Origin: Clostridium sp.
Lineage (GTDB): Bacteria; Bacillota; Clostridia; Lachnospirales; Lachnospiraceae
DNA: 64,000 bases
Direction: 5' to 3'
Assembly (NCBI GenBank): GCA_023667695.1
Contig: JAMOZY010000010.1
Location: 1 to 64,000, forward strand
The notes beneath the pieces were generated by a model. The model was not told the origin of the DNA, made no database searches, and worked only from the letters and a program-made list of their open reading frames with translations. The position numbers were made by a program, and so were the translations under genes. Shown here piece after piece: positions 730 to 17,034 of this stretch (within the stretch, counting starts at the first letter, position 1; every line of letters begins with the position of its first letter).

Positions 730-1190
730 TCATATATTCAATCTCACTCTATACTGCTTCTCGAAGTTGCCTTCTTGTCGGTCTGGTTACCGGCGAGCAT
801 AGACTACCACATGGTTCTCAGGCATATGATAGAAATTGGACTGTCTTTCTGAATCTTATTCATAAGACCCTGTGCCTTACAGTCTCTGAGCCTTCACCCT
901 CGTTCAACGTAGGAGAGCAGGCTTCCAACCCTGCTCCGAGTGCCTTACATTCACTCAGCTTGGTGTCGCGATATCTCATCTTGTCTATTTACTTCCCATT
1001 GCAAATAGACCGGTTACTTAGCATTATTGGTTCGCATATAACCAAATATCCGTTGTTTCTGCCTTTCAGCACCTTAGTATAGCTGTTACCGGTTATACCG
1101 TGGTGGATATTAATAAGAGAGTCCCCGATGTATTACTTGGCTTGCACCTTTCATACTTTGACACGTTTTATTTCTTGCAACATGGACTTA
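730..1190 (-). ncRNA. Probable group I intron (or relic) in tape-measure gene
   Basis: No gene fills 600-1187. Read on the minus strand, the segment has group I core-like elements in order: a P-like stretch ending CGGGGACTC near 1117-1130, a possible Q near 967-981, an R-like GCTCAGAGACTG near 880-893, and S-like AGACAGTCC at 838-846. GACTGT of R and ACAGTC of S can form P7. About 60 bases around 1030-1105 (CCGGTAACAGC…GAAAGGCAGAAA) align with the clearer intron at 4631-5039. It directly follows the broken end of the tape-measure reading frame. There is no internal ORF. Both splice sites are estimates, and the 3' end could lie anywhere between about 620 and 830. Confidence 0.5.
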
Positions 1191-2603
1191 CACCCATGAA
1201 GGACAAAATCGTTGTTTTGATTCATCTTTATTGAAAAATGCCAGAATACCGCCTCCGGCAATGGTGAGCGCACTCGATGTACCCAGTGTATCTGTAGTTT
1301 TATTGATTAGATTCAGTAATTCATTAAATCCATTAATGACAGAAATAATCATATCGGAATCTACTATGTTCCCAACGGTATCCGTCCATGTATTGGACAA
1401 GCGGTTCAGACTGCCTTCCCAGGAATTGGCTGTTTTTTCTGCTTTGGCAGCCAGTGTGTCTGTTCCTTCCCCGTATTCCCAGAGCATTTCTTCGTAAAGG
1501 GAATAGTTCTCCAGTAGAGCGTTTAAGGTAGTTGCTCTGTCTTGACCGCCTGTTGCGTCCAGCAGATTTCTGCGTTTCGCATCCGATTCATCAAGCCGGG
1601 TATATTCTTCCGATAATTCTTTCAGAATCTGCATTGGTTCTTTCAAGGAAACTGTACCATTGCTGATTGTGGTAAGAGATACACCCAGGGCTTCACAAGC
1701 TTCCCGATATCGGTCCAGGGCTTCTTTGTCAATGGCATTGCCGCCATCTTTAATCTTACCGGTTACCTGTCTTACATTCATCAGGATGCTGTTAAAGGAA
1801 TTTCCGATTACGCTTCCATCCTGTTGGGTTACGGCAAGTAATGCGGCGATTGCAGCAGTAGTTTCATCCAGTTCCATCTGGGAGGAAGCCGCCTGAGTTC
1901 CTACAATGGACATGGCTTTCGCTAGCTCGGACATACGGATTGCATGCTGACCGGACAGATAACTTGCTCCGTCCAATGTTTCTGTAAGCTTTTTTACAGA
2001 ACCGTCTAATTCATAGGCTTTATCTGTGGTAAAGATATATCGGTTTGCAAGCTCTGAAGTGATATTGTCTGCGGCTTGGAGTGCTGTGGATAATTCTGCT
2101 ATGTTTTCTGTATTTTCATATCCGGCATTCAGCACTTCTTTGAAGTTTGTTAAATACTCTACTGCTTTTTTGCCGTATTTACTGGCAGTTTCAAACGAAT
2201 TGCCGCCGATTTCTTTCAGGCTGGATACAGAAAGATTCGTGTTTATTTTGCCGATTTCAGCAAGGACGGTATTTATCTCCTTTAATTCTGCTGCAGCGGT
2301 CATGATTTTTGAAATTACAGCCATGATAACATTGGAATCAGTGATTTTTTGGAATCCGGCGGATAATGAATGATTTAACATTTTTTCCATACCGTCAGTC
2401 TGTTCTTCATAGATTTTTCTGGTGCCGACCGTAATTTCTTTGTAGAAATCAGCCGCCCACTGCTTTGCCAGCTTGTCATCAACCGTGATACCCACATTGC
2501 TAAAAGATTTTTGTAGCTCAGCTGCCAGATTTTTTTGAAGCTTAGATAAGCTGCGCTTATCTAATTTGGTGTCAATCGTTATCTGATAATGATTTGTTTC
2601 CAT
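1188..2603 (-). CDS. Phage tail tape-measure protein, N-terminal part
   Basis: These 471 residues match the start of a TP901-type tape-measure protein, which sets tail length by spanning the tail tube. Evidence is the long helical alanine/glutamate/lysine-rich sequence, the block around residues 230-300 (QMELDETTAAIAALLAVTQQ) typical of this family, and the position downstream of tail and lysis genes. Start is ATG 2603 with AAGGAGG at the right distance. Tape-measure proteins are usually far longer. Here the frame passes AGGGILAFF and stops 14 residues later, where the group I intron-like segment begins, so this is best read as a 5' exon or a truncated gene. The two orphan modules to the right (2764-3906, 5472-6152) look like the missing C-terminal half. 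Confidence 0.75.
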   Translation of the reverse strand: METNHYQITIDTKLDKRSLSKLQKNLAAELQKSFSNVGITVDDKLAKQWAADFYKEITVGTRKIYEEQTDGMEKMLNHSLSAGFQKITDSNVIMAVISKIMTAAAELKEINTVLAEIGKINTNLSVSSLKEIGGNSFETASKYGKKAVEYLTNFKEVLNAGYENTENIAELSTALQAADNITSELANRYIFTTDKAYELDGSVKKLTETLDGASYLSGQHAIRMSELAKAMSIVGTQAASSQMELDETTAAIAALLAVTQQDGSVIGNSFNSILMNVRQVTGKIKDGGNAIDKEALDRYREACEALGVSLTTISNGTVSLKEPMQILKELSEEYTRLDESDAKRRNLLDATGGQDRATTLNALLENYSLYEEMLWEYGEGTDTLAAKAEKTANSWEGSLNRLSNTWTDTVGNIVDSDMIISVINGFNELLNLINKTTDTLGTSSALTIAGGGILAFFNKDESKQRFCPSWV

Positions 2604-2746
2604 AATAAGCCCTCCTTATAAAATTGGTTTATGTGTTTATTGGAATTTAAACAGCTGTGTTCTGCTTTTGTTTCCAGATTTGCAATTGTTTGCTATCACA
2701 TCCTTTCAGATAAATAAAATTTAATAATTGAATGTATAAAAACACT

Positions 2747-2793
2747 CTTTAAGTTATATTAGATTAATATAACTTAGACAGTGCTTTAATCGC
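2747..2793. terminator. Bidirectional terminator hairpin, copy 2
   Basis: AAAAACACTC TTTAAGTTATATTA / TAATATAACTTA GACAGTG, near-identical to the hairpins at 551-598 and 5458-5503. The preceding 50 bases (TATCACATCCTTTCAG and on) are also conserved in all three, so the repeat unit is about 100 bp. On the minus strand the stem encodes the final residues ALSKLY and the stop of the tape-measure module. Confidence 0.7.
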
Positions 2794-3906
2794 ATCCCTT
2801 GTCAGACTAAGAAACCATTCCCTGGTAAGCTCATTATATTCAACTTTTAAATCGGTTCCTAGGGAGGAATTGACAATATCAGCAACCTGGTTCATTAATG
2901 CCTGACTGTCCAGACCTGCCAGATAGGTGCTTGACAGGGAAAATGTCTTGCCCCCAGCCTCATCGGCAATCCCTTTTAAATCTGTGATAAAGTAATTCTT
3001 GTTGTCAAAGAATTCCAGATTTCTTGTATAGCTCTGCAAGTCCTTATTGGTCTCTCTGGTATCCTCATAGATACCCTTGAAAACGGCAGAAAGGTTTCCT
3101 TCCGTTTCTTCTGCAATCAGATTTCGATATGCTTCCACTAAATGGTTGATTTTGGCAGAAGCATCCGCTGCACTGTTTCCAAGGCTTACAATGCGGTTGC
3201 CTTCCTTGTCTAAACCAACTACCAGTTCCGGAAACAGGTCTGCCAGTTCATTGCCTGCACTTATGAAATCTGCATATTCTTCCTCTGAGAGACTCAGATT
3301 GGTATGATTGGAGGCATCAACGCCTTTCATCAGTTTTGTATAAGCATCCAAGGCATTGTTCGTAGAAGAAGAGAAGGAATCCAAATCATTTTGTAAGGAT
3401 TTGATTTCCTCTCTGGCAGCAGCACCGGCTTCCTTTAACTTCTGCCGGTGTTCCTCAATCTTTTTGTTGATGGTAACAACGGTGGCAGTAACTGCTACAA
3501 CAGCAGATGCAATGCCGATGATTCCGCCTGCCGGGTTAGCAGTAATGAATGCCCAGATGGAAGTAGCAGTATCCTTAATTTTTAACTTTAGTCCCTGGAA
3601 GGCTGTGCCAAGATTCTGTGTGATACGGGCAGCTTTGGTTTGGGATGAGGCGAGGGTAGCAGTGGCTATTGCCTGGTTCAGTTCTTCACCTGTTAGTCCT
3701 TTGGCTTGAAATATGGCTTTTGCCTGTGCTTCTGTCAATACTATCTGGGATGTTGCTAGTTTTAAAACTTCTGTTGAATAACCTTTAGCTGTATCCTGTA
3801 AGGATTGTATGCTACTCTTACCATTATTTATACCTGTAGAATTTGATAATATGTTTTGAATATCATTTACTGCATTTATCGAATTGCCTAGATTCTTTAG
3901 CTGCAT
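2764..3906 (-). CDS. Orphan C-terminal module of a tape-measure protein
   Basis: 380 residues. A short lead-in (QLKNLGN) is followed by a conserved helical part, a hydrophobic glycine/alanine segment (residues about 118-148, ITANPAGGIIGIASAVVAV), a coiled coil (EEHRQKLKEAGAAAREE) and a C-terminal domain ending ALSKLY. The hydrophobic segment and coiled coil are usual for the middle of tape-measure proteins. The ATG at 3906 has no ribosome site and an in-frame TAG lies a few codons upstream, so translation alone is doubtful. The 390 bases from about 3345 to 3735 are nearly identical to 5535-5930. It looks like a cassette detached from an N-terminal half. The divergent zinc-ribbon gene starts 78 bases away. 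Confidence 0.6.
   Translation of the reverse strand: MQLKNLGNSINAVNDIQNILSNSTGINNGKSSIQSLQDTAKGYSTEVLKLATSQIVLTEAQAKAIFQAKGLTGEELNQAIATATLASSQTKAARITQNLGTAFQGLKLKIKDTATSIWAFITANPAGGIIGIASAVVAVTATVVTINKKIEEHRQKLKEAGAAAREEIKSLQNDLDSFSSSTNNALDAYTKLMKGVDASNHTNLSLSEEEYADFISAGNELADLFPELVVGLDKEGNRIVSLGNSAADASAKINHLVEAYRNLIAEETEGNLSAVFKGIYEDTRETNKDLQSYTRNLEFFDNKNYFITDLKGIADEAGGKTFSLSSTYLAGLDSQALMNQVADIVNSSLGTDLKVEYNELTREWFLSLTRDAIKALSKLY
3345..3735 (-). repeat. Tape-measure repeat, copy 1 (pairs with 5535-5930)
   Basis: About 390 bp coding for the hydrophobic and coiled-coil part of the tape-measure module are repeated about 2.19 kb to the right with only scattered substitutions (for example TANPAGG versus TASPAGG). 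Identity looks above 90 percent by eye; it was not computed. Confidence 0.75.
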
Positions 3907-3984
3907 ATAAGAAAAATACTATTTGTTGCTATCAAATATATTTTATGGTAAGATTATATAAAACAGAATATTGAGGTAATAGTT

Positions 3985-4371
3985 ATGAATTATGATGAAG
4001 CTCACAATTATTTATATAATGAAATTAGCTTTGATAATACATATATTATGTTGGAATTATTAGCTGATGACAATATGATTGAAGGATTAAAACTTATAAA
4101 AAATTTAACATTTTGTGATGATAATGCAGCAAAACTATTGTGGAGTGATTTAAAGTGTGATTTTGGTGCAAGAGAGAACAATCCAATTATTCAACAAAGA
4201 GAAGAAAACGAAAAACTTAGAAAGGAAAATATAAATACATATATACCCAAATGCCCAACCTGCGGTTCCATTAATTTAGAAAGGATTGGCTTTTTTGAAA
4301 CATATCTTGATATAAGTTGTGGAACGAATACTGCCACTTTCCGATGTGAAAACTGTGGATATAGGTGGTAA
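3985..4371 (+). CDS. Small zinc-ribbon protein A
   Basis: 128 residues, ATG start with a weak GAGG-type site. The N-terminal two thirds are acidic and helical. The C-terminus is a zinc ribbon: CPTCGS, about 30 residues, then CENCGYRW. The last 45 residues are almost the same as in the protein at 6184-6534 while the N-termini differ, so the ribbon and downstream sequence belong to a repeated block. It is transcribed away from the orphan tape-measure module at 2764-3906 and ends at a bidirectional terminator. The pairing of each module with one such gene is striking. Possible roles are transcriptional control or an immunity-like partner, but nothing in the sequence decides this. Confidence 0.7.
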   Translation: MNYDEAHNYLYNEISFDNTYIMLELLADDNMIEGLKLIKNLTFCDDNAAKLLWSDLKCDFGARENNPIIQQREENEKLRKENINTYIPKCPTCGSINLERIGFFETYLDISCGTNTATFRCENCGYRW

Positions 4372-4426
4372 TAAGAAGTTACAAATATTTATCATATCCT
4401 TCAATGATATAATTATGACTCAAAAG

Positions 4427-4473
4427 CACTCTATGCAGTACACAGAATTAGTGTAGTTCATAGAGTGTTTTTT
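4427..4473. terminator. Bidirectional terminator after zinc-ribbon gene A
   Basis: CACTCTATG…CATAGAGTG arms with an inner TACAC/GTGTA match and TTTTTT following on the plus strand. AAAA precedes the stem for minus transcripts. The same hairpin is present at 6590-6636. Confidence 0.75.
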
Positions 4474-4630
4474 GATTTTATATACACTTCTGTTCCATCC
4501 AGACAATCTAAGTGTAAGGATTGCTTAGCAACACAATGGCTTGTGACTGGTACGGCAAGGAACCTGCCGATGAATTTTCTAGCAGAGCAGCAATCATATG
4601 AAATGCTGCAAAGGATATACAGAAGGATTC
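4458..4630 (-). pseudogene. Minus-strand coding fragment downstream of the intron
   Basis: On the minus strand an open frame reads through …GRFLAVPVTSHCVAK… and ends …VYIKSKNTL at the stop 4458-4460, inside the terminator stem. It directly follows the 3' end of the group I intron, so it may be the 3' exon of the gene whose 5' exon is 5040-5330. It lacks a start codon of its own. A nearly identical fragment is at 6621-6793. The protein family is not recognised; joining the two exons in frame depends on splice sites that could not be fixed by eye. Confidence 0.35.
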
Positions 4631-5039
4631 ATGAACTTCCATATATCACTATACCTTAAAAGCATATTCCATAAGGCGGAAGATACTCTGAGGATCGGTA
4701 GTCGTTGAACATCCATTCTCATGCATCGGTTTAGTCCCGTCTATAGGGGTTATACGGTTAGATGGTTATCCTGAGAATGTGTGCTGCTGATTTTCACCTT
4801 GTGAATGGCACTTAGGCATACCCTGCGTTTGCACGCAGGTTACCTTATGCCGAATATTCTGTTTTTTCTGCCTTTCGCACGCTTACGTTTACCGTCACCG
4901 GTTCCGCTTTCGTCGAATATTCCTGAGTGTCAGTTCCAGCAATTACTCCTCGTTGGTTTCTTTTCGAACTCCCAAACGCATAGACTTGTACTATGAACCC
5001 TTTTATCAGTTCCTTATCTATGTTAGACCAACTTAAAAT
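4631..5039 (-). ncRNA. Group I intron (no internal ORF)
   Basis: Read on the minus strand the four conserved core elements appear in the right order: P (AATTGCTGGAAC, near 4937-4948), Q (AATCAGCAGC, near 4775-4785), R (GTTCAACGACTA, near 4703-4714) and S (AAGGTATAGTG, near 4655-4666). TGCTG of P pairs with CAGCA of Q (P4), and GACTA of R with TAGT of S (P7). A possible P1-like hairpin is CTTAAAA/TTTTAAG at the 5' end. The segment lies between the stop of the 96-residue tape-measure start and an exon-like fragment, and the repeat copy at 6410-6850 lacks the core. About 400 nt, no homing endonuclease or transposase. Exact splice sites are uncertain: the apparent boundary falls in a GAAT duplicated at both ends. 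Confidence 0.75.
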
Positions 5040-5330
5040 CTAGGCAGTTTTAAGCACCTTTTGGTGATCTAAGTTCTTTTTAAAGCTATTTACTAAATTT
5101 TCTCCTTCATCGATGGTATTCTTTAGTTTTATCAATTCTGAAACACCGAGAGCTTTAGTCTGCTGTTTTGCAGACTTCTGGGCAGTCTTATTATCCAGCT
5201 CCACATCCAATTTAATCTTATGGTTTTTCTGCAGCTCTTTCGTGAGAGTAGACAGCTGTTTGTTCAGATTGGCTCTGGTTTTGGTTTCATCCAGGGAACC
5301 CTCCAATAACACTTTGTTTTGTTCTGTCAT
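5040..5330 (-). pseudogene. Second tape-measure N-terminal fragment (5' exon)
   Basis: 96 residues from ATG 5330, with a strong AAGGAGG. The sequence is lysine/leucine-rich and helical (LSTLTKELQKNHKIKLDVEL), resembling the first hundred residues of tape-measure proteins and in style the start of the 2603 gene, though not the same sequence. It ends HQKVLKTA then stop exactly where the group I intron starts, so it is probably the 5' exon of an intron-split gene or a remnant. It is followed on the same strand by the fragment at 4458-4630. Confidence 0.55.
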
Positions 5331-5457
5331 AGATTTTTCAACCTCCTTGTAAAATATGTTTTATCTGGCTATATCCAAGTGTTATCGCTTGGTTTATAAT
5401 TATATTTTTGTTATCACATCCTTTCAGATAAATGGAAGCGGATAATTGAATGTATAA

Positions 5458-5503
5458 AAACACTCTTTAAGTTATATTAGATTAATATAACTTAGACAGT
5501 GCT
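5458..5503. terminator. Bidirectional terminator hairpin, copy 3
   Basis: Same AAAAACACTC…TAAGTTATATTAGATTAATATAACTTA…CAGTG arrangement as at 551 and 2747 (the stem arms are 12 bases each). It overlaps the end of the truncated tape-measure module. Confidence 0.7.
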
Positions 5504-6152
5504 TTGATTTCATTCCGGTATTCTTTATCATCAAGTTATCCAAGGCATTGTTCGTAGAAGAAGAGAAGGAATCCAAATCATTTTGTAAGGATTTGATTTC
5601 CTCTCTGGCAGCAGCACCGGCTTCCTTTAACTTCTGCCGGTGTTCCTCAATCTTTTTGTTGATGGTAACAACGGTGGCAGTAACTGCTACAACAGCAGAT
5701 GCAATGCCGATGATTCCGCCTGCCGGGCTGGCAGTTATAAATGCCCAGATAGAAGTAACAGTATCCTTAATTTTTAACTTTAGTCCCTGAAATGCTGTGC
5801 CAAGATTCTGTGTGATACGGGCAGCCTTGGTTTGGGATGAGGCGAGAGTAGCAGTGGCTATTGCCTGATTTAGTTTTTCACCTGTTAGTCCTTTGGCTTG
5901 GAATATAGCTTTTGCCTGCATTTGTGTTAGATTCATTTGATTTGCTGCTGCAGTGATACATTTTAAGGAATAATCTTTTAATCCGACTTTTAACAGGTTA
6001 GTGGTATTAGTAAGATTGCTTCGGGTAACTACTCCTACACTATCAAAGATATTCGTTATTGTTCTGATTGCATTTGGAAGATTGCCTAGATTCTTTAATT
6101 GCTTATATGTGGAAATATTATAATTGCCATTTATAATAGCTTCTGTTATTAT
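5472..6152 (-). pseudogene. Second orphan tape-measure module, internally deleted
   Basis: The open frame begins after a stop at 6153-6155 and has no ATG until 5936. It reads KQLKNLGNLPNAI…, corresponding to the start of the module at 3906, continues through the same hydrophobic and coiled-coil parts, then after SSTNNALD jumps into the last codons. Compared with 2764-3906 about 230 residues are missing. The deletion has shifted the frame: the correct end (EIKALSKLY) is still present one frame over. So this copy is a broken relative of the neighbouring module. The first 70 residues differ from the other copy while the middle is almost identical, which suggests cassette exchange at the QLKNLGN junction. 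Confidence 0.65.
5535..5930 (-). repeat. Tape-measure repeat, copy 2 (pairs with 3345-3735)
   Basis: Nearly the same bases as 3345-3735; see that entry. Together with the zinc-ribbon repeat this shows that a unit of about 2.2 kb was duplicated and then diverged at its ends. Confidence 0.75.
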
Positions 6153-6183
6153 TTAATAAAAATAAAATTTGAGGTGCGAGAAT

Positions 6184-6534
6184 ATGACCAAAAAGGAAGT
6201 TCAAGATATATTGATTGCTGTTGATGTTGATTGTAAATCAGTAGACCCTATTATAATGGAAGGTGGAAATTATGAAAAATCAGCCAATTATATTATGGAA
6301 GTAACCGGTTGTGATAAAGAAATGGCGATGGAAATAGCATATGAAATTTATCCGCCAGAAGACTATGAAAGGGATATGGCTGAAGCTGCCAAAGCGAGAG
6401 CCAGAATGCCCAAATGTCCAACCTGCGGTTCCATTTTTTTAGAAAGGGTCGGCTTTTTTGAAACATATTTTGATATAAGTCATGGAACGAATACTGCTAC
6501 TTTCCGATGTAAAAACTGTGGATATAGGTGGTAA
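6184..6534 (+). CDS. Small zinc-ribbon protein B
   Basis: 116 residues from ATG 6184 (GAGGTG seven bases upstream; an in-frame GTG at 6169 is the alternative). The N-terminus is acidic, with a short helical domain that looks like a UBA/TS-N style fold (EVTGCDKEMAMEIAYEIYP), and differs from protein A. The C-terminal zinc ribbon (CPTCGS…CKNCGYRW) is nearly identical to protein A. It is divergent from the deleted tape-measure module at 5472-6152 and convergent with a minus-strand exon fragment, separated by a terminator. Function unknown. The constant ribbon with variable N-terminus mirrors the cassette structure of the tape-measure modules. Confidence 0.7.
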   Translation: MTKKEVQDILIAVDVDCKSVDPIIMEGGNYEKSANYIMEVTGCDKEMAMEIAYEIYPPEDYERDMAEAAKARARMPKCPTCGSIFLERVGFFETYFDISHGTNTATFRCKNCGYRW

Positions 6535-6589
6535 TAAGAAGTTACAAATATTTATCATATCCTTCAATGATATAATTATGACTCAAAAG

Positions 6590-6636
6590 CACTCTATGCA
6601 GTACACAGAATTAGTGTAGTTCATAGAGTGTTTTTT
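6590..6636. terminator. Bidirectional terminator after zinc-ribbon gene B
   Basis: Same hairpin as 4427-4473 with TTTTTT on the plus strand. Confidence 0.75.
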
Positions 6637-6793
6637 GATTTTATATACACTTCTGTTCCATCCAGACAATCTAAGTGTAAGGATTGCTTAGCAACACAAT
6701 GGCTTGTGACTGGTACGGCAAGGAACCTGCCGATGAATTTTCTAGCAGAGCAGCAATCATATGAAATACTGCAAAGGATACACAGAAGGATTC
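6621..6793 (-). pseudogene. Second copy of exon-like coding fragment
   Basis: Minus-strand frame ending …KSKNTL at 6621-6623, nearly identical to 4458-4630. It is preceded by an intron remnant (P element only) rather than a full intron, and no start codon is visible. It is probably a non-functional duplicate. Confidence 0.35.
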
Positions 6794-7847: not shown

Positions 7848-8897
7848 TTATTCAATAACAACCTGTATTTTATCGATGGCAGTTCCAAAGACACCGGCAT
7901 AACCGTCCATGGAAGGCTTCTGTACTTCATCATCCAGCTGCCAGGCATAGTAAGATGTACTGCCAATGGGGGAAACCCGGTATTTTACCTTGCGGTAACC
8001 ACCGGACTGGATTTGCTCCGAAGGAGTATCATAATACATGCGAAGAGCATCAATGACCTTACCGTTTCCAGCGTAGCCGTTTTGAGCATCCTTCCAGTTG
8101 TAACCGTCTACATAAGGCAGCCAGCCACCGCCTAAAACATGGACCTGATACTTTAAGTATCCCTGGTCTGCCTTTGCCATAAAACCGATAATTTTGCGAT
8201 TTTCCAGACCGGCATAGTCTGACAGATTGGTAACCGGAGGCAGTATTCTGCCACCCTCCAGCATAACCGCATATTCCACATTGACCGATATTTGGGCGGA
8301 ATCCATAACCAGCTTTTTCTGTGATACAGGAACAGACTCCGTTACGGAGGCTGCATCCGAATCGGCTTTCAGGGATGTGGTAGCTGCGTTTTCCTTTTTG
8401 GCACTTTCATGGTTATCCTGCAGATAAGCCTGTACCATATCCAGAAACCGCTGCCATCCCAGCTCCAGGGTTCGATGGGGACAGTATTTACCGGACCAGT
8501 CCTGATGCTTCTTTACCCGATTGATATCCCATCCCCGTTCCCGTAAGAGTTTGGCAGTAAGATAAGCAGCGTTTTGCTCCGCTTTTAAGAAGCGTTCTCC
8601 GCCGGATTTGGAGTAGCAGATTTCAATGGAAATGGAGGCACGGTTTCCTTTTCCGTTTCCGTCCCCTGCATTCCAGGTATTTCGTTCAAGAGGAATACCT
8701 TGGACTGCACCGGTATCATCGACTGCAAAATGATAGGAAACCTGGTTATTATTGTTTATCATGTAAGCGACCTCTGCCATGGCAGATGCATCATTGGCAG
8801 TGTTGTGGATGGTAATATAATCTGCCTTCATGACATACGGACATTTCACGGGATATTTTTCCGGCGGGCATAACATTTGTGTAATCGATACGTTCAT
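7848..8897 (-). CDS. Phage N-acetylmuramoyl-L-alanine amidase (endolysin)
   Basis: 349 residues. The N-terminal 160 residues are an Amidase_2 (PGRP-like) domain that cuts the amide bond between muramic acid and the stem peptide. Visible zinc and catalytic features are YITIHNTAND (His31), the NISYHFAVDD-type strand (QVSYHFAVDD), WNAGDGNGKGN, and the HQDWSGKYCPHR motif. After a low-complexity linker (about 165-195) comes a C-terminal domain of about 140 residues containing VHVLGGGWLPYVDG, probably for cell-wall binding. No signal peptide, so it needs a holin; the holin gene ends two bases upstream. Start ATG 8897 behind AAAGGATG. Confidence 0.9.
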   Translation of the reverse strand: MNVSITQMLCPPEKYPVKCPYVMKADYITIHNTANDASAMAEVAYMINNNNQVSYHFAVDDTGAVQGIPLERNTWNAGDGNGKGNRASISIEICYSKSGGERFLKAEQNAAYLTAKLLRERGWDINRVKKHQDWSGKYCPHRTLELGWQRFLDMVQAYLQDNHESAKKENAATTSLKADSDAASVTESVPVSQKKLVMDSAQISVNVEYAVMLEGGRILPPVTNLSDYAGLENRKIIGFMAKADQGYLKYQVHVLGGGWLPYVDGYNWKDAQNGYAGNGKVIDALRMYYDTPSEQIQSGGYRKVKYRVSPIGSTSYYAWQLDDEVQKPSMDGYAGVFGTAIDKIQVVIE

Positions 8898-8899
8898 AG

Positions 8900-9193
8900 C
8901 TATTCATCCTTTCCTGATTGTTTAATCATCTGATTCACATAGGTGCTGAGACTGGCAGCCAGAATTCCCTGGACAATTCCCGTGAAGATTCCCCTCAGGA
9001 TATTCTGTGCCGTGCTGATATCGCTGTTTGCCAGTACATAAATCAGAGAAAGGATAATTCCTGTCAGTCCCAGGAGGGCAGGGATGAATTTATCGGCTAT
9101 GGTTTCTGCATTCTTGAGCATTCTGCCCAGAAAGTATAATGCAATTGCCAGAACCACCAGCTCTGGCTTGATATAATTTAAGATTAGCTCCAT
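8900..9193 (-). CDS. Phage holin
   Basis: 97 residues with three hydrophobic segments (about 10-28, 39-58, 68-86) and a charged C-terminus (QMIKQSGKDE), the layout of Hol44-type holins (phage_holin_3_5-like). It makes membrane lesions that release the amidase encoded immediately downstream. Start ATG 9193 with GGAGCT upstream. Confidence 0.8.
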   Translation of the reverse strand: MELILNYIKPELVVLAIALYFLGRMLKNAETIADKFIPALLGLTGIILSLIYVLANSDISTAQNILRGIFTGIVQGILAASLSTYVNQMIKQSGKDE

Positions 9194-9406: not shown

Positions 9407-10204
9407 TTAGTCCTCGGAAATGATGATATCAAACAGACGGGCTGTTTCATCGCAGTAAGACTTCTGCAGCTTATACTCAGCGCCATGCTTTCCATCTGGC
9501 GTCAGATTAATCTCTACAGATTCCGGATTAATCTTGGCTCTCGGAACAGAGATGACACCGGCATATACCAGATTGGTATTGCAAGGGTCATGGAAGATTG
9601 CATGAATCAGCAGAGATTTCACCTCTGGTATGCCATCTGTTTTCTTCGTTACCTTTACCGCACTTGCAGTCTCTGCATCGTATCTTACGAATACACGGCC
9701 GGTTACACCTTCCGGAAGCGTAATGGTCTTTGCTGCTGCATCTAAGGTGAACTTGCCTTCTCCGGCAGTCGGAGCAAGCTCATAGGTATCTCCAAAGGTA
9801 TTGTTTTCATTGATAACCTTTACATATTTTACTTCTGCGCCGGCAGCACCGACCGGAGTATACTTTAATACAACCTTTCCCTCGGCACCGATGGTAATGG
9901 TTTCAGATACCGGCTTGATAATCTTATTGTCATCACTGGCAACGTCCTTTTTAGAGCCAAACTGAGATGCAGCAAGGTCAAGAGAGAACAGGCTGTTGCT
10001 AAAGCTGAAGGTACCGGTCTGGGCATTGTAGAAGGTTACAATCTCCGCACCCATGGCGTCTGTTACCTGGGTTCCTTCTGCTGAAGTCTTTAAGCTTGGT
10101 TCCTCAATCTGGGTATAACGGCCGATTAGCTCATTTGTAGCCGGGTCGTATTCCTCTACCGCTCTGATTTTTTCAAGTACTAATTCATTTGGATTAAATG
10201 CCAT
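9407..10204 (-). CDS. Phage major tail (tube) protein candidate
   Basis: 265 residues from ATG 10204, chosen because AAGGAGGAAT sits directly in front of it; an upstream in-frame ATG (10222) lies inside that ribosome site. The sequence is beta-rich with many Thr, Val and Gly, and a central Ig-like stretch (around 95-170: ETITIGAEGKVVLKYTPV). This is the style of tail tube proteins with an inserted Ig-like domain. It precedes a strong terminator, as expected for an abundant structural protein. The family assignment is inferred from composition and context. Confidence 0.6.
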   Translation of the reverse strand: MAFNPNELVLEKIRAVEEYDPATNELIGRYTQIEEPSLKTSAEGTQVTDAMGAEIVTFYNAQTGTFSFSNSLFSLDLAASQFGSKKDVASDDNKIIKPVSETITIGAEGKVVLKYTPVGAAGAEVKYVKVINENNTFGDTYELAPTAGEGKFTLDAAAKTITLPEGVTGRVFVRYDAETASAVKVTKKTDGIPEVKSLLIHAIFHDPCNTNLVYAGVISVPRAKINPESVEINLTPDGKHGAEYKLQKSYCDETARLFDIIISED

Positions 10205-10249
10205 AATGTATTCCTCCTTCATAATCTGGTCAGACAGGGAAAGAACCGA

Positions 10250-11005
10250 TTAGTCCAGTTCTCCCAGCCAGTCTAACTGTTTGGTTGATATTTCCTTGAG
10301 GTTCACTCCGAAGCCGGAGTAACCACTTTGCAATAATAAATCTGCATGTTTCATCTTGCTGATTCGTCTGACAGAATCAATAAATGCATGGATTTTCATA
10401 TTCCAAACCTCATCGTGGTTATATTTGAAACCATCACAATTAATCATGGCGGATACCATGTTTTTTAATTGTGAATGATATTCCCGGTTTTTATTTCGAA
10501 GATAGTCCTCCCGGGCATCCTCAATCAGAATCTGCTTGGTAGCTTCGTTTGCAGGCAATTGATTGTTTCGCTTCAGGCCATGGATGCTTCGAAGCACATC
10601 AGCGATAACCAGATAGGTATATTCATCGATTTCAATGTTGGTTTCCCTATCGTACATGACGATATCTTCGGAATCCTTTTTTTGAAATATCTGAAATTTG
10701 GGAAAATCCAGATTCCCCAGCAGAATCGCTGTCTGTTCCTTTGAAAAGCTTCGGCTTAAGAGTCCGTAGAATAACTGAAAGTCCGATATGGTGGTGTAAT
10801 CAATCCCCATATCAAAGAGCTGGAACTTCATATCCGCCCCTACGGAAGTAAGGGTATAGACCATAGACCAGTATTGTCGTTCGCCATAATTACATATTTC
10901 ATCCAGGGTAGGCTGGTGAATGACAATTCCTTCTTTTACGAAGAAGTCCTTTCCCCGATAGATTTGAAGCTCGTCGTTTATGATTTCTTCCAGATTGTTC
11001 ACCAC
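10250..11005 (-). CDS. Phage protein, possibly tail assembly related
   Basis: 251 residues, acidic, mostly helical, no recognised motif. The start is uncertain: GTG 11005 lies right next to the only purine-rich site (AAAGG). It lies between a zinc-ribbon protein and the major tail protein, a usual place for tail assembly or connector genes. Residues near 60-95 (FDMGIDYTTISDFQLFYGLL) are reminiscent of tail assembly proteins of Gram-positive phages, but this is weak. Confidence 0.5.
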   Translation of the reverse strand: MVNNLEEIINDELQIYRGKDFFVKEGIVIHQPTLDEICNYGERQYWSMVYTLTSVGADMKFQLFDMGIDYTTISDFQLFYGLLSRSFSKEQTAILLGNLDFPKFQIFQKKDSEDIVMYDRETNIEIDEYTYLVIADVLRSIHGLKRNNQLPANEATKQILIEDAREDYLRNKNREYHSQLKNMVSAMINCDGFKYNHDEVWNMKIHAFIDSVRRISKMKHADLLLQSGYSGFGVNLKEISTKQLDWLGELD

Positions 11006-11170
11006 CTTTGCATAAGAAGGGCAGCCGGATGCTCATGGAAGATGAACCGCCGGCTGCCGGTAAGAGAAGCAAGCATATATGCCAGGAATAAGCAGTCCTG
11101 TTGGAGTTATCCACTACTGTATATATACGAAGGGAATATGCCTGCTTTTGCAGATAAATACGGTAAAAAC

Positions 11171-12007
11171 TCAGGATTTCAGCTTTTCCACACGGTAGCT
11201 TCGCTGCTTTTCCGTTTTATTCCTGCGGTTAAAGCTGGCCTGACAGCCTGGACACCGCTTCTGATTATAGCTGTGAAGCTCGAACAGACAGCCACAGTCT
11301 ATACATCTACGGTATCGCTGATGCTCCCGGACACCGTAATACTGCTTCTGCCACTTCCGAAGGTCACCCTCCAGACTTTGGCAGAAGTATCGTATGTAGA
11401 AATTATCCTCATTCATAAAATCATAGATGCGTTGGAATTGCCCCGGTGTTTCGTATTCCTCCAGCCGCTTACAGGTACGAAAGTGATTCTGCAAAAATCC
11501 CTCCATCAGTTGTGTATATTCCTGCCAGGACAGCACCATTTTTTGATTTTGATAGGCCGCCTTTAGCTGTTCCGCCCGGCTCATAGCATCCTGAATGGCA
11601 GTATCCAGTTCTCCGGCCTTCCATTCCCGGCCGCTTCGCCACTGATAGTATAATTCCTTTGGCGTATGCAGCAGCTCCAGATAGTCTTTCTGTAAAACGA
11701 CTTCCTTATCAAAGTATCTGGTATACAGATTGTTGATTTTTTGTCGTATCAGACTGCACCAATCGGTTTCCTTTGAACTGGATTGATATCCCTTGTATTC
11801 CAGCCGGGACCAGGCATCAAATATCTGTCCGGTTCTGGTTTGTATGAAGGGTTCTTCTACAGAATAACGAATCACTTTGGTATAAACCCTTCGTTGGTTC
11901 CGGCTGGACCAGAGAGAAGAGCAGAAGTCCTGAAATACGGCCGCTTGTTCCTCTTTGGATTCTGCATCCTTATAATCTTCGATTTGTTCGTATAAGTAAT
12001 CAGCCAT
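11171..12007 (-). CDS. Phage zinc-ribbon protein paired with polymerase gene
   Basis: 278 residues, mostly helical and charged. Near residues 236-260 there is a zinc ribbon CIDCGC…KRCPGC followed by a very basic tail (RRNKTEKQRSYR). The start ATG 12007 overlaps the end of the polymerase-like gene by eight bases, so the two are translationally coupled. A nucleic-acid-binding partner of the polymerase is a reasonable guess. Function is otherwise unknown. Confidence 0.55.
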   Translation of the reverse strand: MADYLYEQIEDYKDAESKEEQAAVFQDFCSSLWSSRNQRRVYTKVIRYSVEEPFIQTRTGQIFDAWSRLEYKGYQSSSKETDWCSLIRQKINNLYTRYFDKEVVLQKDYLELLHTPKELYYQWRSGREWKAGELDTAIQDAMSRAEQLKAAYQNQKMVLSWQEYTQLMEGFLQNHFRTCKRLEEYETPGQFQRIYDFMNEDNFYIRYFCQSLEGDLRKWQKQYYGVREHQRYRRCIDCGCLFELHSYNQKRCPGCQASFNRRNKTEKQRSYRVEKLKS

Positions 12008-14633
12008 CTTTTGTCACCTCCGTATAAGTATAGTATTTTCCCAGATATTCATAGGTCTGCTCTGTCGGTTCGGCTGCCTCCCGAATGGAAATGGTTTTCC
12101 TGCAATCGGAGTTGGACTTCAGGTTCCGGATGATATAGTCTCCATAGCCGCCCCATGCCAGGGACTTGCTGATGGAAAGACTGGAATAGGATACCTGAAT
12201 CACATAGTTGGCAATTTCTTCCTCATTCAGAGGAAGGGTTTCCGCCAGTCTGCTTTTGAACTGGTCTGTAATCTCCGCTATATGAAAGCCGGAGCTGTAT
12301 TCCTTTGACGAAGCCTTGTGAAGCTCCATGTGTCGGCGCAGCTCATCCGCATATGCGTTAATATACCGCCGGATTAGCTTTATGATTTCTTTGTCAGATA
12401 CATCCAGTGCATGGTTCAAAAAGAGCCTGCGGGATTCCTGTAGGTCTATGGTGTCATGATTCCACAGGATACACTTCTTTTCCCAGGTGCAGATATAGCT
12501 GCACAATTCATTCATAGGCGAAGGAGAGTAGTAAGCATTCAGGTTGACCGGAGCTTCCTCTTCCTTCTGCCGTTTTTTCTTTTCCTTCAGGCTTTGATAG
12601 GTTTTCATTTTATCCGGATAATTGTAAAGCAGGAAATAAGGCAATTGCTTTGACCGCTTCCGCAAGCCTGCATTCATATGCCATCGGACTCCGGTTTTTA
12701 AGAAATCAATTTCCTTGCCCTGAAAGACACGGAGCAAAGAGGCAGAATCGGAATATAACTGCCGGATTTCTTCCTTTGTAGTATATCTGTTTTCAATACT
12801 GGTTGCCGCATTGGTAATCTCTCCAATCCGGTTATCCCGGGTCATGATTTCATATTCAATGATGTTGTCCCGGGTATAGGGCTTGGGCAGAGCAGCTGCC
12901 TTGTCCTCGAAGTCCAGGATAACAGGCTTATGGATTTTCGAGTGAATCAGAATCGGGTCATTGCATAGGAAGAAGATGTCGCCGTCGAAGTCGGCACCAC
13001 CCTGCTGGGGTGCCGAGATATCATACAGATTGAACATCACCACATCCTGTCCCCGGAAGTATCCGAACCATTGGTCAATCACTGGATTGCCGGCAATCCG
13101 AAGGGAATTGACCTCCGAAGGGTCAACCAGCGGGGAACGAAAGGAAAGGATATCCCCGCAATCAAAATTCCCGCTATAGATTTCCCGTTCCTTCAGACAT
13201 CCGGTTGGTGCTTCGCCTGCTGCGTATTGCAGATATCCAATCATATCGCCCACACCGGTATGATAAAACCCGGAGCAGTAGATTTTCCCTACCTTGGCTT
13301 CGTCAATGGACTTTTTCAGCTTCCGGTATAGGTACTGCTTTACAGCCGGGTCCTTCCACACGGCATCATGAATCAGTGCCGCTTCCAGATACCGGCTCGC
13401 CGGTTCCGTATCCTCCGAATTGGTCATTCCCAGAAACTTATAGGTATAAAACAGTTCTCCCTTGATTATTTTTTCAAACAGGGTAGTGGTATACCTTGCC
13501 AGCTTGATGATTTTTCCATCATTTTCCGGATTCAGAATATCGTAATCCTCCAATCGGTTCTGTTCAAAGCACTCCACATATCCGGGATTCCATAGGTCCA
13601 GACACTGCAGATACTGAAAGTTCATACGGGTGTATCGGTTCAGATTCTTTATGTGATGGCTGTATTTGCTGATGCCCAGTTTAAATTGGTATTTGCGGAT
13701 GGTATGCATGTATTCCTTCCATGCCTCTGCTCCGTATTGCTTTACAAATAACGAATGTCCCTTGAACATGGATGTATTCCAGATACAGTCAACGGTATCT
13801 ATCGGATGAACCTCTCCATAGATATCCGTAATGGTTTCATACCCCCATTCCTTCAAAAGTCTCCGAAAGGGAACATAGACAGAGAAGCCTTTCATAAAAG
13901 GAAGCCGAATCTGCGTTCCGATTGCATTATAGTCCAGACCAAGCTGGGCGCTGACCTGTTCCATGAATTCCCACTCGTGGCAGCCACAGCCGTCAAAGGG
14001 AGAGATTTTCACATCCCGCCATCCTTCTTCGATGATTCTTGCCTTATAGGTCTTTGGTTCCCCGGTTTCCGGGTCTGTGAACTCCTTTTCCTGCTCGACA
14101 ACATATTTGACAAATTGGTGTTCTATTTGCTTTTCATATTCCCCGATAATAATGATATTGGGCATATAGTCATGAATCAGGGTACAGGAACTGAAAATCA
14201 GACAGCGCTGGGCTTCGTATTTGGAAATGATGCATTCCTCCACCGGAATATCCATTTGTGTAATGCGGTATAACTCATCATAGATACTGTCACAGACAAA
14301 TGCAGTAATACCATCCTTGCCCTGGGAGGCGGATTTGCCAAATCGGGCATAGTGGATTCCGTTATAATAAAAGCCATTTTTTAATACATTGCGTAAGGCT
14401 GTTTCCTGCTTTGGATTTTTCTTTGCCACCACCAGAATCACTTCTTCTATGTGTGAGACGGTTCTGCCCCGAAGCCGTTCAATCTGGTCCAATAGTAAAG
14501 AGTTTTCCTGTGTGATGCGGTATTCCTGCTCCAGCTCTGCTGCCCGGTCCATATGGACATCAAAGCGCTGAGTAATCAGTTCCTGTAAGGGAAGCTTGAT
14601 AAGTGTGTATTGTGTAGATGAAATGTTTTTCAC
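12000..14633 (-). CDS. Single-chain YonO-like RNA polymerase
   Basis: 877 residues. The key feature is DFDGD at residues 548-552 in the context GGADFDGDIFFLCND, the metal-binding signature of the double-psi beta-barrel RNA polymerases (DFDGD in the beta-prime subunit and YonO, DxDGD in eukaryotic RDRs). Length is close to SP-beta YonO (about 840 residues), a known single-chain DNA-dependent RNA polymerase that transcribes late phage genes. Other support: a basic segment after the motif (RKRSKQLPYFLLYN) and a location at the head of tail and lysis genes. Start ATG 14633 follows AAGG. It overlaps the zinc-ribbon gene downstream. Inference: it may transcribe this phage's late genes. RNA-templated activity cannot be excluded from sequence. 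Confidence 0.75.
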   Translation of the reverse strand: MKNISSTQYTLIKLPLQELITQRFDVHMDRAAELEQEYRITQENSLLLDQIERLRGRTVSHIEEVILVVAKKNPKQETALRNVLKNGFYYNGIHYARFGKSASQGKDGITAFVCDSIYDELYRITQMDIPVEECIISKYEAQRCLIFSSCTLIHDYMPNIIIIGEYEKQIEHQFVKYVVEQEKEFTDPETGEPKTYKARIIEEGWRDVKISPFDGCGCHEWEFMEQVSAQLGLDYNAIGTQIRLPFMKGFSVYVPFRRLLKEWGYETITDIYGEVHPIDTVDCIWNTSMFKGHSLFVKQYGAEAWKEYMHTIRKYQFKLGISKYSHHIKNLNRYTRMNFQYLQCLDLWNPGYVECFEQNRLEDYDILNPENDGKIIKLARYTTTLFEKIIKGELFYTYKFLGMTNSEDTEPASRYLEAALIHDAVWKDPAVKQYLYRKLKKSIDEAKVGKIYCSGFYHTGVGDMIGYLQYAAGEAPTGCLKEREIYSGNFDCGDILSFRSPLVDPSEVNSLRIAGNPVIDQWFGYFRGQDVVMFNLYDISAPQQGGADFDGDIFFLCNDPILIHSKIHKPVILDFEDKAAALPKPYTRDNIIEYEIMTRDNRIGEITNAATSIENRYTTKEEIRQLYSDSASLLRVFQGKEIDFLKTGVRWHMNAGLRKRSKQLPYFLLYNYPDKMKTYQSLKEKKKRQKEEEAPVNLNAYYSPSPMNELCSYICTWEKKCILWNHDTIDLQESRRLFLNHALDVSDKEIIKLIRRYINAYADELRRHMELHKASSKEYSSGFHIAEITDQFKSRLAETLPLNEEEIANYVIQVSYSSLSISKSLAWGGYGDYIIRNLKSNSDCRKTISIREAAEPTEQTYEYLGKYYTYTEVTKDG

Positions 14634-14669: not shown

Positions 14670-14873
14670 TCATTGCTGCCATGGCTTGACGGCAAGATGA
14701 TTTTTGTAGTAAGCGTCCCGTATTTCCAGCTCCTTATTGGTATAAGCGTATTTTTTCTGCGTGTTGGGATAGCAGGTGCTGAAATCATGAATTGTAAGTT
14801 CTCCTGCAAATTCCCGCGGGTCCGGCTGATACCGGTAAGGGTCTTTGGTAGTTGGTATGAATGTTGTTATCAA
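14670..14873 (-). CDS. Small phage protein at head of operon
   Basis: 67 residues from a TTG at 14871-14873, supported by GGAGGAGG seven to nine bases upstream. Rich in Tyr and Pro (PTTKDPYRYQPDPREF), no motif recognised. First gene after the minus-strand promoter and 36 bases before the polymerase-like gene. Confidence 0.6.
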   Translation of the reverse strand: MITTFIPTTKDPYRYQPDPREFAGELTIHDFSTCYPNTQKKYAYTNKELEIRDAYYKNHLAVKPWQQ

Positions 14874-15041: not shown

Positions 15042-15070
15042 ATTATAATACCCGAACATATGTTTGTCAA
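15042..15070 (-). promoter_or_regulatory. Consensus promoter of the phage operon
   Basis: On the minus strand TTGACA (15065-15070) and TATAAT (15042-15047) are separated by exactly 17 bases. ACATATGT in the spacer is a small palindrome that could be an operator. The leader from about 15035 to 14873 is about 160 nt with no gene. A host-type promoter here would let host polymerase make the YonO-like enzyme. Confidence 0.8.
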
Positions 15071-15396: not shown

Positions 15397-17034
15397 ATGA
15401 AACGAATGAAATGGATAAAAGCAGTCATGGTATTACTGCTTAGTATGAATCTGCTCATAGTCAATGCTATGGCAGCAGAGCCTGGCACGATGCAGGCGGA
15501 TACGGTTTCTTCGGATGCAGTGCTGGATACGGGAGAAGCTGTACAGGAAAATGCAGCCAGTGAAAGTAGTTCCGTAATGAATTTAAGTATTTCCGGAACC
15601 TATGATTATGATATGGCATATGAGGTGCTTGCTCTGGTGAATCAGGAACGGCAGACGGAGGGTCTTTCACCTTTGGCTATGGACCAGGATTTATTAAATG
15701 CTGCCATGCTTCGGGCTGCAGAGAATGGTTTGTATTTTGGCCATACCCGGCCGGATGGTACGAGTTGTTTTACTGCCTCCGCAAAAATGTCCGGAGAAAA
15801 TGTAGCAGCCGGTTCCGGAACGGCCAGCGGGGTTATGGAGCTTTGGATGAATTCTTCCGGTCACCGGGCGAATATTCTGGGAAGTGATTATACCAGCATT
15901 GGAATTGGCTGCTTTATTCAGAATGGTATGCCATACTGGGTACAGGTCTTTGGAAGAGGCACGGCAACACCTGCAGTCAGACCGGGGAATCGGGCAGTAA
16001 CAGAGACCATCCGGGTGTCCTCCGAGCTGTTGGAGGGGGCAGACTTTCGTCTGCGTCCATCGGCATATTCTTATGGGAAGGGTGAAAAATTAACCTTGAT
16101 TCCATATGTTACCAATCTGGGTTGGGATTATGCTTCCTGTCAATTACTTCCATCCGCCTTTCAATGGAGTTCGAATCAGGCTGGCTTTACGGTAAATGAA
16201 AATGGCGTAGTGACACTAGGAGCCTATGGAAGCTTTACGATTACTGCAAAGCTAAAGGCCAGTCCGTATACGGAATTAAAATTTATCGGCGATTGTAATT
16301 CGGACGCCAATGAAACAAGATTGTTTGTGGAACGGTTATACGAGACCTGTCTGGGTCGGGATTCCGAGGTGGACGGTCTGAATTACTGGACGGAAGAATT
16401 GACTTCAAAACGTCAGAGCGGCACAGCAGTTGGATATGGATTTGTATTCAGTGATGAATATAAAAATAAGCATACAACAGATTCTGATTTTATAGAAATG
16501 TTGTATCTGGTCTTTATGGACCGTCCATCGGATGCCGGTGGCAAATCGTATTGGCTTAATCTGTTACAGCAGGGCTTGTCAAGGGAATATGTATTTGCAG
16601 GCTTCGCACATTCCCAAGAGTACACTTCAATCTGTAGTTCATATGGGATTACGCGGGGAACGGTGACACTTTCACAGCCACGGGACAAGAATCCGAATCT
16701 GACTGCTTTTGTTAATCGGATTTATGTTGAGGCCATGGGGCGTACCGGAGAAGCAGATGGCTTGAATTACTGGTGTCGGAGCATTCAGGCAGGAAACAGC
16801 CCAATCCGGGTAGCGGAATATTTTATCAATTCCGAAGAGTTTCGGAATAAGCATTTAAATAATACGGAATATATAAAGGTCTTATATCGAACCTTTATGG
16901 GACGGGAGGCAGACCAAAGCGGATTGGACTATTGGCTGGCACGCTTGGACCGTGGGGAAAGCCGGGAAACTGTTTTGAAGAGCTTTGCCGGTTGCCCGGA
17001 ATTCCGCAGCATTATAAAAAGCTTTGGTTTATAG
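15397..17034 (+). CDS. Secreted CAP-domain protein with DUF4214 repeats
   Basis: 545 residues with a signal peptide (KAVMVLLLSMNLLIVNAMA, cut near residue 27). Residues about 65-195 form a CAP/SCP domain as in YkwD-like proteins, with LVNQERQTEGLSPLAMD, FGHTRPDG, GENVAAG and SSGHRANIL. A linker domain of about 100 residues follows, then two or three DUF4214 repeats (about 305-540) marked by GRDSEVDGLNYW, MDRPSDAGGKSYW, GRTGEADGLNYW and GREADQSGLDYW. DUF4214 is common in cell-surface proteins of Lachnospiraceae and is thought to bind carbohydrate or matrix. Start ATG 15397 behind AAAGGGG. A terminator follows, so it is a single gene. Confidence 0.85.
   Translation: MKRMKWIKAVMVLLLSMNLLIVNAMAAEPGTMQADTVSSDAVLDTGEAVQENAASESSSVMNLSISGTYDYDMAYEVLALVNQERQTEGLSPLAMDQDLLNAAMLRAAENGLYFGHTRPDGTSCFTASAKMSGENVAAGSGTASGVMELWMNSSGHRANILGSDYTSIGIGCFIQNGMPYWVQVFGRGTATPAVRPGNRAVTETIRVSSELLEGADFRLRPSAYSYGKGEKLTLIPYVTNLGWDYASCQLLPSAFQWSSNQAGFTVNENGVVTLGAYGSFTITAKLKASPYTELKFIGDCNSDANETRLFVERLYETCLGRDSEVDGLNYWTEELTSKRQSGTAVGYGFVFSDEYKNKHTTDSDFIEMLYLVFMDRPSDAGGKSYWLNLLQQGLSREYVFAGFAHSQEYTSICSSYGITRGTVTLSQPRDKNPNLTAFVNRIYVEAMGRTGEADGLNYWCRSIQAGNSPIRVAEYFINSEEFRNKHLNNTEYIKVLYRTFMGREADQSGLDYWLARLDRGESRETVLKSFAGCPEFRSIIKSFGL

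Follow-up and report, generated by a model that had tools for sequence, protein, structure and literature searches.

What switches on a YonO-type RNA polymerase encoded in a bacterial chromosome, which genes does it transcribe, and how is its promoter recognised? These questions are raised by a 64,000-nucleotide stretch of DNA from a Clostridium sp. of the Lachnospiraceae (positions 1 to 64,000 of contig JAMOZY010000010.1, assembly GCA_023667695.1; hereafter the window), in which a gene for such a single-chain polymerase precedes phage tail and lysis genes. Our reading, to which we assign a probability of roughly 0.7, is that a tailocin-like operon for headless phage tails is driven by a transcription module that works in two steps and is triggered by DNA damage. 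DNA damage would lead to cleavage of LexA and free a LexA-blocked consensus promoter at 15042-15070, from which the host RNA polymerase would transcribe the genes for the YonO-type polymerase and a zinc-ribbon protein. The zinc protein would then bind the polymerase as a subunit that acts much like a sigma factor; its central domain would read an AT-rich motif at 11107-11140, and the YonO-type polymerase would transcribe the tail, holin, amidase, tape-measure and fibre genes as one late operon with a hairpin leader. Cell lysis would release the tail particles. This scheme is suggested by the family of the polymerase, the LexA boxes, the linkage of the motif to the polymerase sub-family, the co-variation of the zinc protein with the motif, and a search for head genes that detected none. 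For the steps up to the firing of the late promoter, the support from sequence varies in strength. A more specific proposal is tentative, and we hold it at slightly worse than even odds: that the zinc protein is an unrecognised non-sigma specificity subunit with a cognate TATATATACAGTAGTGGATAA promoter, whose two variants match two forms of the subunit, the whole being an orthogonal, SOS-armed switch for a headless tail weapon of Lachnospiraceae.

A YonO-type polymerase gene behind a probable SOS promoter

The polymerase gene (12000-14633, minus strand) encodes 877 residues from a GTG start, with the catalytic motif DFDGD at residues 548-552 (12978-12992, minus strand). The first-pass annotation had proposed a YonO-type enzyme on the strength of this motif, and both the reading frame and the assignment hold. 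The protein matches the Pfam RdRP family PF05183 with E=2.7e-18 (66.4 bits against a cut-off of 23.8) over residues 77-685, a match of 609 residues that covers profile positions 55-556 of 582, and it matches PHROG 8308 with E=1.7e-62. A tblastn search from the polymerase reaches yonO of SPBc2 (E=5e-7; ~21% identity over the match), and comparison with the SPbeta YonO family by hhalign gives a probability of 100 and E=8.3e-43 across an alignment of 656 columns in which the aspartate triads coincide. D548, D550, G551 and D552 are invariant in an alignment of 33 sequences. The DFDGD match is thus not isolated, and these agreeing homology searches confirm the protein as a member of the YonO-type family, in which double-psi barrels are expected by homology. 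Searches of PDB sequences gave only chance-level matches with a profile of the 33-row polymerase alignment, and a single-sequence search gave QDE-1-type RNA-dependent RNA polymerases at E of about 0.07. The gene is single-copy in its genome.

Same-family, GTDB-genome and IMG/VR searches yielded about 50 related loci, with polymerases 55-85% identical. Scans of IMG/VR with the window protein alone, with the polymerase of locus L033 or with that of phage TR-TP1 returned no matches. On these comparisons the polymerase belongs to a sub-family that has a separate zinc-ribbon partner gene and occurs in both Lachnospiraceae chromosomes and phages. The loci have two layouts: type A loci lie among host genes and continue to tail, fibre and lysis genes, and type B loci are phage or phage-like, many of them continuing into terminase and portal.

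Ahead of the polymerase operon lies a predicted host sigma-A-type promoter, TTGACA-N17-TATAAT (15042-15070, minus strand), the best of the region. Its hexamers, at 15070-15065 and 15047-15042, match the consensus at 12/12 positions and are separated by a 17-nt spacer. A host-type consensus promoter had been reported at this place; the LexA/SOS box CGAACATATGTTTG in its spacer (15053-15066, an exact match) marks it as a probable SOS promoter. At the threshold used for the box scan, which allowed at most one mismatch, 0.28 matches were expected by chance. The same box-promoter design is found at the genome's own lexA locus, TTGACAAAAGAACATTGGTTCGATATAAT. LexA boxes lie 5' of the polymerase operon in 28 of 33 type A tail clusters versus 0 of 21 type B phage loci (Fisher p=1e-10, an optimistic value since the loci are related); in the relatives they are usually paired, at a spacing of about 28-34 nt. 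The polymerase operon therefore appears to be under LexA (SOS) control through a box that overlaps the promoter, where LexA would be expected to bind.

A zinc-ribbon partner and a candidate late promoter

The gene that follows the polymerase (11171-12007, minus strand) overlaps it by 8 nt and encodes a 278-residue protein with a zinc ribbon, C235-x2-C238 ... C252-x2-C255 (11243-11305, minus strand), so the coupling described in the first-pass annotation stands. The zinc-protein gene is found directly 3' of the polymerase gene in 48 loci, overlapping it in most, and the four cysteines are invariant across 35 sequences. In SPbeta and in phage Perkons the polymerase itself carries a matching ribbon at its C-terminus (hhalign E=8e-6, probability 84). 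Because the ribbon is fused to the polymerase in these phages, we argue by the Rosetta-stone principle that the zinc protein is a physical partner of the polymerase. Phages BUCT082 and PMBT24 encode a separate partner protein with the ribbon cysteines. The zinc protein had no significant match in Pfam or PDB and no homology to sigma-70 or TFB, and a PDB sequence profile search with its alignment gave chance-level matches only. Its probable role is that of a specificity factor, sigma-like in role only.

Motif discovery on a 400-nt region spanning the end of the zinc gene found one strong motif of ~34 nt, which lies on the operon strand and starts 14-55 nt past the zinc-gene stop codon; its copy in the window is CATATTCCCTTCGTATATATACAGTAGTGGATAA (11107-11140, minus strand). 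Two variants occur, TATATATCAAGTATGGA (I) and TATATATACAGTAGTGGATA (II), with a T-tract usually 5' of both. In a leave-out scan, for which the locus in question and its near-copies were excluded from the model and a threshold of >18 bits was set, 38 loci score within 80 nt of the zinc stop codon. The same scan of 2.0 Mb of strand found five other sites, each on the operon strand of type A clusters. Across the window's 2.99-Mb genome, a search for the final 23 nt of the motif that tolerated as many as 3 mismatches gave a single match, at the 11107-11140 site. Phage records of up to 150 kb in IMG/VR contain at most one strong copy of the core pattern each and a few weak, chance-like matches; the core is missing in three.

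The motif is common to phages with quite different downstream (late) genes. It was not detected in L033 (genome G022), although two tail proteins encoded there are 60-67% identical to those of the window; the polymerase there is 26% identical and of another sub-family. Together, these observations indicate that the motif follows the polymerase sub-family and not the tail genes. No similar motif was seen in a by-eye look after the partner gene in TR-TP1, PMBT24, CB457P1, BUCT082 and Perkons and in the yonN-yonK gap of SPBc2. That the polymerase might have late promoters of its own had been offered as speculation; a conserved motif behind the zinc gene in nearly all relatives lends it comparative support, and the motif at 11107-11140 is the leading candidate for such a promoter.

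An alternative is that the late genes are reached by host polymerase that starts at the SOS promoter and reads through. The motif would then be a processing, repressor or recombination site, and the YonO-type protein would have its action elsewhere, perhaps on RNA templates. The co-directional genes would allow this, PF05183 is named for RNA-dependent polymerases, and L045 has two exact motif copies ~4 kb apart around an insertion. However, the nearest relative to have been characterised, YonO, is required for late genes and has a strong preference for DNA templates (PMC5467207), and the motif sits on the operon strand before the late genes in phages that do not share those genes. We regard read-through as very unlikely. 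The two copies in L045 (14670-18696) flank genes for proteins of 565 and 214 residues, and small repeated paralogues are found near the duplicated motif.

A late promoter could also be recognised by the polymerase itself, in which case the zinc protein would have a part in elongation, structure or assembly. In phage P23-45, single-chain two-barrel polymerases are linked to promoter motifs of their own, without a named partner (PMC10770324), and in the distant relatives TR-TP1 and L033 the partner gene lacks a zinc ribbon. Against this stands the way in which the promoter variants are distributed. On the zinc-protein tree the sequences with variant I group into a single clade, except for L040, but on the polymerase tree the variant requires about 3-4 changes. 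In a partial Mantel test, promoter similarity tracks the zinc central domain after correction for the polymerase (0.41, 0/1000 permutations), but does not track the polymerase in the reverse test (-0.26). Recognition by the polymerase without the zinc protein is therefore unlikely in our judgement.

The preferred reader of the promoter is instead the central domain of the zinc protein (residues 57-228; 11324-11839, minus strand). Co-variation with the promoter variant is strongest at residues 57-116 and 177-228. It disappears in the ribbon, whose coding sequence is located on the DNA between that of the central domain and the promoter motif. Linkage as the sole cause is disfavoured because this intervening ribbon shows no association, though the ribbon may evolve fast. 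Since the co-variation persists after polymerase correction and is absent from the intervening ribbon, we argue that the central domain probably reads the promoter. The earlier suggestion that the zinc-ribbon protein serves as a specificity factor gains comparative support in that the motif variants co-vary with its central domain and not with the polymerase. This co-variation, exploratory and drawn from few independent events, is the best evidence for the central domain as the candidate reader of the late promoter.

Another regulator was considered for this role. Most tail-cluster loci, about 29, encode an ECF-like (extracytoplasmic function) sigma factor divergently from the polymerase operon (for example L030:13099-14790, minus strand), and a GmrSD_N/DUF262 protein is either fused to it or encoded next; the sigma/GmrSD gene is absent beside the window copy and in phage-type loci. 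It was set aside as the late-promoter factor, given that motif-bearing phages and the window locus do without it beside the polymerase. Its position is taken in the window by a 545-residue open reading frame just upstream of the SOS promoter (15397-17034, plus strand), which by eye resembles a secreted CAP-domain/DUF4214-like protein.

Between the motif and the first late gene, the leader of the late RNA is predicted to fold into a hairpin with a UUC loop and a stem of about 15-18 bp (11020-11058, minus strand). About half of the loci have a hairpin of ~35-41 nt downstream of the motif, with a UUC-type loop and quite different stem sequences, and its architecture is conserved in the window and 17 relatives. 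An alignment of the hairpins by MAFFT was poor, and pairs were counted on centred windows instead: in 16 hairpins, 241/256 stem cells are paired, with many pair types per position. Choosing the best hairpins biases this count upward, while their uniform size and loop were not selected for. The leader hairpin could stabilise the late mRNA or act as a signal to the polymerase.

A probably headless tail cluster

Queries for terminase, portal and capsid gave no match in the 33 type A loci and four further downstream stretches, versus matches in 9 of 24 non-A loci. Complete or near-complete clusters, such as that of [Clostridium] asparagiforme DSM 15981, contain tape-measure, Dit, minor tail, fibre and endolysin genes and have a recombinase at one end. 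Among the cluster proteins scanned, a subset of the genes, tape measure, Dit and minor tail were matched and sheath was not. Because the host-embedded clusters hold tail, lysis and fibre genes, with no terminase or portal homologue found, they look like tailocins, that is, headless tails. From this gene content, the tail particles would be released and would kill other bacteria.

The lack of detected head genes would also fit a satellite or split-phage element that relies on another phage for the heads its tails would join. Elsewhere in the window's genome, however, a single weak terminase-family match was found (E=8e-4), and a likely fibre-variation cassette and the clusters' own lysis genes better fit a bacteriocin; a satellite is highly improbable. 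The end of the [Clostridium] asparagiforme cluster (L093:10736-16149) carries short open reading frames in reverse orientation that resemble repeated fibre ends, along with integrase-type recombinase genes, which suggests an invertible receptor-binding cassette.

Layouts A and B are interspersed on the polymerase tree, with 6 changes between them, at least 3 of which are forced by well-supported branches. This intermixing indicates that the module has moved between phages and tail clusters more than once. Separately, the placement of the L033 tail genes behind a polymerase of another sub-family suggests that polymerase modules have been exchanged between tail clusters.

In the window, a co-directional block on the minus strand runs from 15070 down to ~1188 and comprises the SOS promoter, a small open reading frame of 67 residues that is first in the operon (14670-14873; kept within the genus, 82%), the polymerase and zinc-protein genes, and the late genes. 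A gap of 165 nt separates the zinc gene from the first late gene, which encodes a 251-residue protein of the phrog_4051 family (10250-11005; E=5.5e-11). The putative tail structural protein after it (271 residues, 9407-10222) is placed in the tail-tube slot by position only; in relatives this slot is filled by phrog_2729/807 proteins. Next come a holin of the Hol44 family (8900-9193; PF16079, E=3.3e-23), an N-acetylmuramoyl-L-alanine amidase that would serve as endolysin (7848-8897; PF01510, E=6.3e-21), a conserved 165-residue cluster protein of family C3 (7333-7830; 21 homologues across 19 loci), and the tape-measure region (1188-5936). The contig starts at window base 1, with the remainder of the tail operon missing and the fibre genes outside the visible part. 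The block had been annotated as a phage tail operon. Its tail and lysis genes are borne out by the holin, amidase and tape-measure matches; what they make up, here and in most chromosomal relatives, looks like a headless cluster under LexA control and not an intact phage.

The tape-measure region is split, partly duplicated and ended by the contig start. The tape-measure family PF10145 is matched at 1188-2603 (E=5.9e-14), and a near-duplication of ~2.2 kb, in blocks 90-97% identical, spans 2689-6705. These features and the contig end would fit a decaying prophage remnant in which the polymerase persists and the cluster makes nothing. Decay sits poorly, however, with the fact that this headless arrangement recurs in many species with its polymerase, zinc protein, LexA boxes and motif intact, and with the invariance of the catalytic residues, and we consider a remnant quite unlikely. 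The duplicated segment (2689-6705) also has hairpin-forming repeats and small zinc-ribbon open reading frames on the opposite strand (3985-4371 and 6169-6534); comparable antisense zinc-ribbon genes lie within the tape-measure region of several relatives.

Several points weigh against a damage-triggered module that drives a headless tail operon. The window has a single LexA box, where most relatives have pairs. The search for head genes consisted of terminase, portal and capsid queries from two phage groups, together with annotation of four near-complete clusters. In G279/L057, L048, L045 and L056 the motif is either degenerate or missing from its usual position, with copies further downstream in L045 and L056. 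The motif could also be another kind of element. The co-variation was found after seeing the data, has one origin on the zinc-protein tree, and leaves L040 as an odd locus. Finally, the window copy may not make particles, given its split and duplicated tape measure and the contig end.

Comparison with known systems

Both components have precedents: YonO-type polymerases are known, and so are F-type tailocins under SOS control. In the literature searched, which left most subscription papers outside and so makes novelty uncertain, we found no tailocin with its own polymerase and no Lachnospiraceae tailocin like this one. Like the F-type tailocins (F-pyocin, monocin, rhizoviticin; PMC10811719), the type A clusters combine fibre and lysis genes with those of an apparently non-contractile tail, without detected head genes and under apparent SOS control. 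They differ from them in that the tailocin-like cluster of the window carries its own RNA polymerase. If our reading is correct, gut Lachnospiraceae would widely carry an unusual kind of tailocin that brings its own RNA polymerase, and the module could serve as a compact orthogonal expression system for anaerobes.

Among phages, Thomasclavelia phage TR-TP1 and Enterocloster phages CB457P1 and PMBT24 likewise place a YonO-like polymerase gene and, after it, a partner gene in front of the late genes. Their polymerases are 23-28% identical, they are whole phages with terminase and portal, and the window motif is not evident past their partner gene. Thermus phage P23-45 resembles the window in its single-chain two-barrel polymerases and in an AT-rich promoter motif that tracks the presence of the enzyme; it differs in that its virion enzyme is fused to the tape measure and no zinc partner is described, as far as the accessible portion of the source goes (PMC10770324).

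The closest comparison is with SPbeta, where DNA-dependent RNA synthesis has been demonstrated for YonO and the enzyme transcribes the late genes as one operon that starts upstream of yonK, near the yonO gene; its promoter and any factor were left open (PMC5467207). Both systems have a single-chain, two-barrel-type polymerase with a DxDGD triad, recognised in the window from sequence; both place the polymerase gene just upstream of one late operon, with an associated zinc ribbon, in a system that DNA damage induces in SPbeta and would induce in the window. In the window, unlike SPbeta, the ribbon is part of a separate, overlapping gene with a large extra domain, and the polymerase lies directly under LexA boxes and ahead of a headless tail cluster. 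A candidate promoter is visible in the window, whereas none was known for YonO. On the question of how YonO-type enzymes find promoters, the loci described here point to an exact candidate promoter and to a candidate specificity subunit, in which residues 73, 81, 82, 152, 195 and 199 are of particular interest, and they offer natural variants that can be swapped. Two proteins and a single 60-bp DNA would now suffice for a direct test of the question.

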